Assembly (NCBI GenBank): GCA_034440575.1
Contig: JAOTOL010001519.1
Span: 735,001 to 799,000, forward strand
Direction of reading: 5' to 3'
Length of the DNA: 64,000 bases
From: Imbricaverruca yamaguchii
Lineage: Eukaryota; Arthropoda; Thecostraca; Neoverrucidae
The notes beneath the pieces were generated by a model. It was given only the letters and a program-made list of their open reading frames with translations. It had not been told where the DNA came from and did no database searches. Position 1 is the stretch's first letter. Each line of letters begins with the position of its first letter. Positions 244-61,570 of the stretch are shown piece after piece. The position numbers and the translations under genes were made by a program.

Positions 244-3200
244 CTGAAACAGCGACCCCGGCTTCAGCCTGGGTGCACAAGGCTGCTTCGAAGTCGTAGT
301 TGCGACTTTACGACACACTCGGCAGCTGGGGCCATATGGCGGCGCCCGTATCTCACCTTGGCAATACGGGTGGGCACCTCGGGGAATCAAACCCTGCACC
401 TCTGGCAGCCCAGACGCTCAGCTTAGCCGCTGGTCTACCAGCGTCACCAAGACTACGTCGAGCTACCAGCGCCCGACCAGGCCGTCTGGGCTGCCAAGCG
501 CAGAAGGAGACCAGCTGAAATATATCTGAGTTTTTGCAGTGTCGAGCGCCGATCATTGCAACATAATGCGCAACCAAGCGTTGTAGATTTGAAACTGCGC
601 TGTGGACGAACTGGGTGACGCTTGATCACGTGGTTAAAACGGCTCCGGGCCAGCCCATGGCGCAGCGACGACACTGCTGCCCGCCGCTGGAGACCATTGA
701 CTGGCTCGGGGACCAGCATTTACGACGCGTATCGGGTGTACAGGCGAGGCCGTCGCCGACAGAGTTCGCTCGTTGAATTACCGACCTCCGTCGGGGAGAC
801 ACAAAACCAGCCGGCGCCGGTGAGGCTGGCTCGGCTGCGTCGCCGACACGGGCCCAGACTTGTCGTCCAGGAGGAAATCGGGGCTTCCACAGCATTGAGC
901 ATCATTGAGTGCCACTGAGAGACATAGTCAAACGACTAGCTCAGTACAGGTCTGACTCCGTACTGTCCTTCTCGAATATCGGTTGATATGTGCTCCTATT
1001 GAACTGATTTCCTCTTTTCTAGTATCCTTACTGGTGTCCAGCTGCGACAAATCGGCTGAGCTCCAGATGTGGTCGCAGCGGCAGCGGTGTACTCACGTCT
1101 GCCGCAGCGGCAGCGGTGTACTCACGTCTGCCGCAGCGGCAGCGGTGTACTCACGTCTGCCGCAGCGGCAGCGGTGTACTCACGTCTGCCGCAGCGGTGT
1201 ACTCACGTCTGCCGCAGCGGCAGCGGTGTACTCACGTCTGCCGCAGCGGCAGCGGTGTACTCACGTCTGCCGCAGCGGTGTACTCACGTCTGCCGCAGCG
1301 GCAGCGGTGTACTCACGTCTGCCGCAGCGGTGTACTCACGTCTGCCGCAGCGGTGTACTCACGTCTGCCGCAGCGGCCTCTCCTCGCAGCGGTGTACTCA
1401 CGTCTGCCGCAGCGGCTGTTACGTCTGCCGCAGCGGTGTACTCACGTCTGCCGCAGCGGTGTACTCACGTCTGCCGCAGCGGCAGCGGTGTACTCACGTC
1501 TGCCGCAGCGGCAGCGGTGTACTCACGTCTGCCGCAGCGGCAGCGGTGTACTCACGTCTGCCGCAGCGGTGTACTCACGTCTGCCGCAGCGGTGTACTCA
1601 CGTCTGCCGGCGCACGTCGCCGCAGCGGCAGCGGTGTACTCACGTCTGCCGCAGCGGCAGCGGTGTACTCACGTCTCCAGCCGTCTGCAGCGGCAGCGGT
1701 GTACTCACGTCTGCCGCAGCGGTTCCCGTTGCAGCGGTGTACTCACGTCTGCCGCAGCGGTGTACTCACGTTCCGGTCGTCTGCCGCAGCGGCAGCGGTG
1801 TACTCACGTCTGCCGCAGCGGTGTACTCACGTCTGCCGCAGCGGCAGCGGTGTACTCACGTCTGCCGCAGCGGTGTACTCACGTCTGCCGCAGCGGTGTA
1901 CTCACGTCTGCCGCAGCGGTGTACTCACGTCTGCCGCAGCGGCAGCGGTGTACTCACGTCTGCCGCAGCGGCAGCGGTGTACTCACGTCTGCCGCAGCGG
2001 TGTACTCACGTCTGCCGCAGCGGCAGCGGTGTACTCACGTCTGCCGCAGCGCTCGCCGGTCCACATGTGGTCGCAGATGCAGCGGTCGCTGCTCAGGTCG
2101 AACAGGCCGTGGCCGGAGCAGTCCGGCAGACAGCGGCGGATCCGCTCGTCCGACAGCTGACAGGCGGGTCCCACCCAGCCGGCCGTGCAGAGGCACACGC
2201 CGTCCGAGCAGACCCCGTGACCCGAGCAGCTGGGGTCGCCGCAGTCGGCTGCAATGGACGTCCGCTGAGGTCACACAGCCGCAGGGAACAGCCGGCCAGG
2301 CAGACCCCGTGTCCGAGGTGGGGTCGCCACAGTCGGCTGCAATGGACGTCCGCTGAGGTCACACAGCTGCTGGGAACAGCCGGCCATACAGAGAGAGACC
2401 CCGTGACCCGAGCAGCTGGGGTCGCCGCAGTCGGCTGCAATGGACGTCCGCTGAGGTCACACAGCTGCTGGGAACAGCCGGCCATACAGAGGCAGGCGCC
2501 AGAGGCAGAGGCCATGGCCCGATCAGGTATCGCTAATGCAACCACCGGCTTGATCACCTGAAATGCTAGACAAGAATAGAGAACATCGTGGTAGAATAAT
2601 GGCGGATCCAATTCAGGATATTTCTTCCCACTGGTTGCGGCTCCGCATTCTTACATGTCCACGGGACATTAGCTAAGTTTGACTACAAAATGCAGAGCCT
2701 TAGCAAACGGAAATTCCAAGAGCATTGCATTTAATCGAATTAGTGTCATGATAGCAGCATACTTCAGCAGCACTGATGACGTTTATGTGGTCCATAGTGC
2801 ATGCTAGCCCAGATGCAACATTATATCCTATTTTCGAGATCATATTTACACTGACAGACGCCGCGGTCAGAACAGGTGGTGGTGGGGGAGCACAGTCCGT
2901 TGCAATTGACGTCCGCCACCAAAAGTGCAAACAAGTACCCTACTACCCTCCACGGAGTGTAGGACTCTGCTACTCTCCATGGAGCTGGAATCCTGGTCAT
3001 GATTAAGAAAACAGCTTGGTCTAGGATTTCCAGCATCCAGAGGCCAATTTCAATGTCGTCACAAGCTGTGTAATCACGCTGAACTTGCTGTGAACGCAAT
3101 GTAGGAAATATGTTAAATTAGATGTGATTTAACACGATGTGTTTAATTTGTCTTGTTTAATATTTCAGTCGCCAACAGCTAACTGCCTGCTATGATGTGA

Positions 3201-60829: not shown

Positions 60830-61570
60830 GTCTGACCAGCGAACGGCGGGGAGTGGGGTGAGATGTGATATGACCTTTGTAAGGTGGAGAGCGTAGTGAT
60901 GTGTGGTCTGATCTGGAGAAGGTGGAGAGTGGGGTGAGATGTCCTCTGACCTTTGCAGGGTGGAGAGTGTAGTTAGGTGCGTTCTGACCCGGGGAAGGTG
61001 AAGAGTGTGGTGAGATGTTTCCTGACTCGGAGAAGGTGGGGAGTGTGGTGAGCTGTGTTCTAACCTGGAGAAGATAGAGAGTGTAGTGAGATGCGTTCTG
61101 ACCTGGAGAAGATGGGAATGTGGTGAGATGTCTTCTGACCTGGATAAGGTGGAGAGTGTGGTGAGATGTGTTCTGATCTGGAGAAGGTGGAATGTATGGT
61201 GGGTTCTGGGTCTTAGATTGACGGATTGAGGACGAAGAAGAGTATTGTGACATTCAGTTTAGTCAGTACAATGTCAGTACAAAGTCAGTACAATGTACAG
61301 AGTATTATTAGATGTCACTTAGCCTAAGGGTGAGGGTCTGTTTCGACCTGAGGTATGTGTAGTGTATGGCTTGAATGTCTGATTTTGGAATGCAAACGGA
61401 GAGTGAAGTGGTATGTGGTCTGATTGATCTGCGTTAGATGGATGCCGTGATCTGATCTGGGGACTGTCACCGGAGCTGGAGGCGGTGGAGGGTGCGATGA
61501 TATTTGATCTGATCTGAACACTGTCGCTTGAGTTGGAGTCGATGGAAGGTGCGATGTTATTGGATCTGAC
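60830..61570 (-). repeat. Acceptor-like tandem repeats upstream of E1 (~9 units)
   Basis: On the minus strand units of about 45-55 bases contain CACTCTCCACCTTCTCCAG then GTCAGAACGCATCTCAC. The CCAG|GTCAG core equals the E1 acceptor and first bases (TTTCCAG|GTCAGGACGTG). Units are degenerate and continue as a 57-bp doublet at 61450-61565. Confidence 0.65.

Follow-up and report, generated by a model that had tools for sequence, protein, structure and literature searches.

Most of the exon–intron junctions of a teneurin gene in the barnacle Imbricaverruca yamaguchii are tandemly copied into the introns that flank them. In the window, by which we mean the whole 64,000-nucleotide stretch of DNA analysed (contig JAOTOL010001519.1, positions 735,001 to 799,000, forward strand), at least one such copy was found for 13 of 18 modelled junctions under a strict test, which confirms the observation of a first-pass annotation of the same sequence, where roughly 14 of 18 were counted. 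The test detected 158 junction copies, every one of them intron-side and none exon-side.

Locus and gene model

The assembly surveyed comprises 767,457,503 bases in 1430 contigs; C1286 denotes the contig carrying the window and both teneurin copies described here, while C1233, C996 and similar labels denote other contigs. The gene in the window lies on the minus strand and was recognized as a teneurin from a match to PDB teneurin-3 (1.5e-14, exon 6 region) and from EGF_Teneurin matches in four of the six exons scanned with Pfam, one of which (exon 6) also matched GBD_Tenm3; among these six, exons 1 and 3 had no Pfam domain match. A Tox-GHH domain is located downstream of the window on the same strand (C1286:687525-687746, minus), and the gene, followed exon by exon, is predicted to run unbroken from the window to this domain. 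On this model it combines EGF and N-terminal β-domain homology with a C-terminal Tox-GHH domain, as expected of a teneurin. We refer to the window's own copy of the gene on C1286, minus strand, including the part outside the window, as arm2.

The window model consists of nine exons with 18 junctions and was built from homology, reading frame and GT/AG signals, so that exon ends are predictions. Exons 2 and 3 have clashing phases, so the model must lack one or more exons between the two; the exon that these phases call for was looked for and not found. A tandem-repeat (TRF) listing of the window holds 94 rows. The exons and their arrays are as follows, with "second copy" denoting the inverted gene copy on the same contig:

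Exon 1, 60499..60798, minus strand: probably encodes the intracellular domain; no Pfam match; acceptor with 0 copies, donor with 1, which lies in the intron at a distance of 833 bases.
Exon 2, 51756..51893, minus strand: acceptor with 6 copies, donor with 6 copies; copies in the second copy too.
Exon 2 acceptor array, 51931..52412, minus strand: unit about 75.
Exon 2 donor array, 51070..51766, minus strand: unit about 30.
Exon 3, 44536..44768, minus strand: arrays at both ends (2 and 4 copies); no Pfam match; hydrophobic stretch that we read as a putative transmembrane segment.
Exon 3 acceptor array, 44739..44931, minus strand: unit 67.
Exon 3 donor array, 44236..44566, minus strand: spacings 59-83; 4 copies, 9 in the second copy.
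Exon 4, 38805..38915, minus strand: donor array only (21 copies), acceptor with 0.
Exon 4 donor array, 37770..38846, minus strand: unit 48; 21 copies, 15 in the second copy.
Exon 5, 27185..27336, minus strand: donor duplicated once; acceptor without copy.
Exon 5 donor duplication, 26964..27257, minus strand: spacing 125; shorter repeats within.
Exon 6, 22673..23057, minus strand: galactose-binding-like domain and EGF; GBD_Tenm3 8.8e-15; arrays at both ends, the acceptor weak.
Exon 6 donor array, 20254..22700, minus strand: unit 30; 70 copies, 21 in the second copy.
Exon 6 acceptor array, degenerate, 23052..23704, minus strand: unit about 30; 1 copy at 70%, 5 at 62%.
Exon 7, 12627..12821, minus strand: two EGF repeats; EGF_Teneurin 1.3e-20; acceptor with 11 copies, donor with 3 (donor weak).
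Exon 7 acceptor array, 12793..13360, minus strand: unit 45; 11 copies, 7 in the second copy.
Exon 8, 2039..2248, minus strand: two EGF repeats; acceptor array with 2 copies, donor array with 30.
Exon 8 acceptor array, 2206..2491, minus strand: spacing 88-98.
Exon 8 donor array, 1074..2051, minus strand: spacing 29 and 23; 30 copies, 24 in the second copy.
Exon 9, 58..243, minus strand: two EGF repeats; both ends without copies.

Just within the intron after exon 1, positions 59697-60484 hold a (CTCCCT)n tract with some 130 units, and the sole copy of the exon 1 donor (offset 833) lies on its far side.

Junction copies in the window

The strict test took the 50 bases around each splice site, with the site at the centre, and sought gapless matches of ≥70% identity within 2.5 kb. 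Lowering the threshold to 62% added a single exon-side match, at 22672 (66% identity), and none of 235 test pieces from exon interiors of arm2 had a copy. The five junctions without copies in the strict test are the acceptors 60798, 38915, 27336 and 243 and the donor 57. The weak positives are 23057 with a single copy at 76%, 12626 with three at 70-76%, 60498 with a single copy 833 bases off and 27184 with a single copy at 90%. Acceptor 60798 yielded no junction copy even at 62%, and a 38-base array lies nearby at 60851-61191; assuming that the exons of the first-pass annotation run left to right from 2039, it is the only one of the 14 exon ends named there that fell away, the other 13 having stood. 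GC content at the exon end does not discriminate between junctions with copies (0.665) and those without (0.649).

The copies concentrate at exon edges, the share of intronic positions in the window with a copy falling from 73% at less than 100 bases from the nearest junction to 8% at more than 4 kb. Of 3000 intronic positions lying over 700 bases from any junction, 336 have a copy, and compared with these the 13 of 18 gives a Fisher p of 2.7e-9. With TRF arrays of period ≥20 as a cruder measure, 10 of 18 junctions lie inside an array or at most 10 bases from one, compared with a mean of 3.5 under circular shifts, 69 of 20,000 of which reach 10; these p-values describe the window alone, because it was picked for the feature.

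Anatomy of the arrays

Across 22 arrays, the exon-derived part of the unit measures 13-90 bases (median 38.5). Spacing is 29-125 bases in 20 of them; the other two, at 23057 and 60498, have a single distant copy, so that no period can be set. Of 198 copies, a count that leaves out the exon 4 donor array, 178 retain the AG or GT, whose bases match at 0.95-0.96 compared with 0.90 at other positions, that is, about equally well, so that selection favouring or opposing the extra sites is hardly apparent. The open stretch in the frame of the adjoining exon exceeds 400 bases in the exon 2 arrays on both sides, the exon 4 donor array, the exon 7 acceptor array and also the hexamer run following exon 1. 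Periods divisible by three number 7 of 22, which is chance level, and we rejected coding repeats as an account since there is no such excess.

The most similar pair of array-bearing junctions (2038 and 22672) reaches only 60% identity. This dissimilarity led us to reject a single mobile satellite and bears out the earlier proposal that each array was built locally from its own boundary. A conveyor, with identity dropping with distance from the exon, was likewise considered and set aside: of the five arrays tested, the one with 70 copies, at 22672, shows the trend (rho -0.54), whereas it was not significant in the other four, each with at least 8 copies.

A second, inverted gene copy on the same contig

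C1286 carries a second teneurin copy in inverted orientation, at 565001-684000 (plus strand) relative to 687179-799000 (minus strand), the latter including the window. Exons of the two copies are 97-99.6% identical (7 exons), with 8 of 275 fourfold sites differing, and the start of exon 2 is just 75% alike over 60 bases. A counterpart of exon 1 was not found in the examined part of the second copy. Introns align over 12.5% of their length (13 introns), mainly beside exons. Among 30 junction pairs, copies are present in both genes at 16, in neither at 12 and in one only at 2, namely the donor 12626 (window gene) and the acceptor C1286:704022 (second copy). Spacing is equal or close at most of the 16 shared junctions and differs at a few, such as C1286:701530 (36 and 65) and 702262 (122 and 40), and copy numbers are unequal between the gene copies (for example 70/21, 30/24, 21/15, 11/7, 4/9, 6/11 and 3/22).

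The two copies may have arisen by inverted duplication with exon conversion, or the assembly may have joined two haplotypes head to head. Alleles in barnacles can diverge strongly, those of Balanus improvisus differing at about 20% of fourfold sites according to the accessible part of one report (PMC8270832). Whether the copies are paralogues or haplotypes, the arrays are present on two stretches of DNA. Two further repeats were noted at this locus: a dispersed repeat of about 830 bases at 29254-30071, 31041-31728 and 54842-55669, also present at C1286:627 kb, and a 60-base array at 3700-4761, with no exon found adjoining it, pieces of which align to the second gene copy.

Junction copies elsewhere in the assembly

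Downstream of the window, 5 of 14 junctions of arm2 have copies within a 350-base reach. In the portion of arm2 that lies beyond the window, the share of positions with copies is 49% (34 of 70) at less than 100 bases from a junction, 37% at 100-250 bases, 12% at 250-500, 0 of 712 at 500-2000 and 5-6% beyond 2 kb. A third teneurin (teneurin B, C1233) was modelled from the EGF exons onward only; a search for its N-terminal exons in a further 30 kb returned partial matches to exon 6. Here 4 of 18 junctions have copies compared with 371 of 2000 intronic positions, and there is no edge effect (15% at less than 100 bases, 24-26% at 100-2000 and 13-14% beyond). The first-pass annotation took as a refuting outcome that array edges lie no nearer to splice sites than chance would place them; the result is divided, copies clustering at junctions in the window gene, also outside the window, and not doing so in the third teneurin.

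As a sample from an unrelated gene family we took 14 myosin exons, being every third of ranks 2 to 41 among 72 myosin-head matches, on nine contigs. The genes were chosen blind to arrays, and splice sites were picked by eye, the donor of L044 being uncertain. Under the strict test 4 of 28 junctions have copies, on 4 of the 14 exons, all 13 copies being intron-side and none exon-side; the exon interiors gave 0 of 559 and a block-shuffled control 1 of 1315. The flanking intron is itself rich in copies, 238 of 1687 positions being positive compared with 4 of 27 junctions, so that the plain comparison gives no junction excess. Flanking repeats touch the splice site in 5 of the 14 exons and fall short of it in two others. 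In a recount, 231 of 239 positives came from the five loci whose repeats touch the splice site, and the other nine loci contributed 8 positive positions out of 1177. Some myosin matches of about 30-90 residues sit inside open frames of 690-1080 residues (C1082, C1138, C1376, C1171, C1307 and C1404), which may point to further in-frame arrays; arrays are present at one of these matches, L038 (C1376).

Junction arrays therefore occur in unrelated genes on other contigs. The first-pass annotation had wavered between a genome-wide habit and a feature tied to teneurin, and the former fares better, with junction copies on 4 of 14 myosin exons and repeats touching the splice site in 5 of 14. Array density is nevertheless uneven among genes (13 of 18 junctions in the window, 4 of 18 in the third teneurin and 4 of 28 in myosin), and the notion of an equally systematic multiplication everywhere finds no support.

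Relation to known systems

The phenomenon, which the first-pass annotation could not name, matches the "mirages" of amphioxus, which are said to leave normal splicing undisturbed and of which the one in Adh3 reportedly shows somatic instability. Ordinary intronic minisatellites have similar unit lengths and copy-number behaviour; unlike them, the barnacle unit takes in the end of a coding exon together with the splice site, and in the barnacle teneurin the arrays gather at exon edges.

In the accessible parts of the two source papers, mirages are described as minisatellite-like tandem duplications of exon–intron boundaries in Adh3 and the globins BflGb6 and BflGb9, with splice-site repeats known also in PGBD5 and troponin C (PMC3087553, PMC3902484). 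As far as those passages go, the units bridge the boundary in both animals, many of them with the AG or GT, and either the 5' or the 3' exon boundary can be duplicated (PMC3087553, PMC3902484). The barnacle spacings of 29-125 bases (20 of 22 arrays) fall inside the range of 10-160 bp given for amphioxus units in the part of the source available (PMC3087553). Copy number is described as varying between haplotypes in amphioxus and varies in the barnacle between two gene copies, which may be paralogues or haplotypes. What differs is the barnacle host and the extent, with 13 of 18 junctions of one gene stretch affected and up to 70 copies per junction; for the two amphioxus globin genes, by contrast, the same partial account describes a single boundary apiece, with at most 6 units. 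Judged by sequence, the barnacle arrays appear to be of the same kind as amphioxus mirages, the novelty being the barnacle host and the density in one gene.

New introns have been proposed to arise from tandemly duplicated splice sites, and to our knowledge clear recent cases are few. Potato RdRp is said to be a case of intron gain through tandem genomic duplication. In the Rogers model, as cited in the available part of PMC3087553, introns are gained through tandem genomic duplication at AGGT sites, and mirages have likewise been proposed there as a route to new introns (PMC3087553, PMC3902484). The barnacle arrays resemble this model in that a tandem duplication copies splice signals, and differ from it in that the window copies lie in pre-existing introns and no new intron was seen. 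We found no such arrays in barnacles or other arthropods in the portion of the open-licence literature in view, and the passages of barnacle genome papers retrieved by search term do not mention splice-junction arrays.

Origin of the arrays

We consider it likely that these arrays are mirage-type minisatellites, arising as tandem duplications across exon edges that are tolerated through the exon-side copy and then amplified. The anatomy of the units, their intron-side placement, the retention of AG and GT, the junctions shared with the second copy and the occurrence in unrelated genes are observed, and from them we infer a molecular route that would be neutral for the gene. A short stretch over a splice junction, some 13-90 exon bases plus adjoining intron, would be tandemly duplicated; the exon-side copy would retain a functional splice site, at which splicing would continue, and an open frame, and the remaining copies would turn into intron. 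The duplication would be tolerated because the exon-side copy still functions, and copy number would then go up and down through replication slippage, unequal exchange or gene conversion. Two observations count against this mirage-type explanation: the third teneurin has copies at 4 of 18 junctions without an edge effect, and myosin junctions are no richer than their flanking intron.

Whether exon edges attract duplication or tolerate it is answered differently by different genes, the window gene pointing to attraction and the third teneurin against it, with a myosin sample too small to tell. A tentative possibility is that the edges themselves seed tandem duplication, transcribed exon–intron borders provoking it and the arrays outlasting the remaining intron. 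A doubtful, though possible, alternative is that duplications arise at one rate anywhere in noncoding DNA, junctions not being special and the window gene being a hand-picked outlier. The latter gains from the third teneurin (4 of 18 junctions, 371 of 2000 intronic positions), from myosin (4 of 27 and 238 of 1687) and from the selection of the window for the feature, but it sits poorly with arm2 beyond the earlier reader's view, where 49% of positions under 100 bases and 0 of 712 at 500-2000 bases have copies. Also against it, all five myosin exons with substantial flanking repeats have a stretch touching the splice site, and the remaining nine loci have just 8 positive positions in 1177.

The remaining readings are weaker. 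That the arrays serve as alternative donors or acceptors, extending the protein in frame or regulating splicing, is improbable: four arrays and the hexamer run are open in frame for more than 400 bases and AG/GT matching is slightly above that of other positions, but no more than 7 of the 22 periods divide by three, and the two gene copies are far apart in copy number. That the arrays are a peculiarity of teneurin is still less credible. When all are tested at the same reach, the window's 11 of 18 does exceed the 8 of 45 of teneurin B and myosin combined (Fisher p 0.0017, with no correction for how the window was chosen), but such arrays occur at myosin exons too, and with 4 of 18 the third teneurin is only slightly above myosin with 4 of 28. 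Least credible of all, and very improbable, is that the arrays are consensus errors of assembly. Tandem arrays are prone to such errors, and head-to-head gene copies on one contig could be wrongly joined haplotypes; against this, the second copy has mostly same-spacing arrays with other copy numbers, other contigs carry similar arrays, both in teneurin B and at myosin exons, and if the copies are haplotypes, the arrays are still on both.

On the mirage-type explanation, amphioxus mirages would extend to a distant phylum. A genome with many multiplied junctions and two gene copies offers a testbed for whether duplication is drawn to exon edges, for how decoy sites are ignored and for whether any array became intron or exon. 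If seeding holds, the arrays would keep a standing stock of ready splice sites, from which new introns or in-frame extensions of exons could be made.

A separate observation concerns the mitochondrial gene COX1, which is open in the mitochondrial code at C996:270910-272247 (L024), about 271 kb into the contig, and may be a nuclear copy or a mis-join. The assembly COX1, read with the invertebrate mitochondrial code, places the genome among barnacles, very probably stalked ones: it is 97% identical to that of the neolepadid barnacle Leucolepas longa, the next best matches, to other barnacles, reaching 91%.
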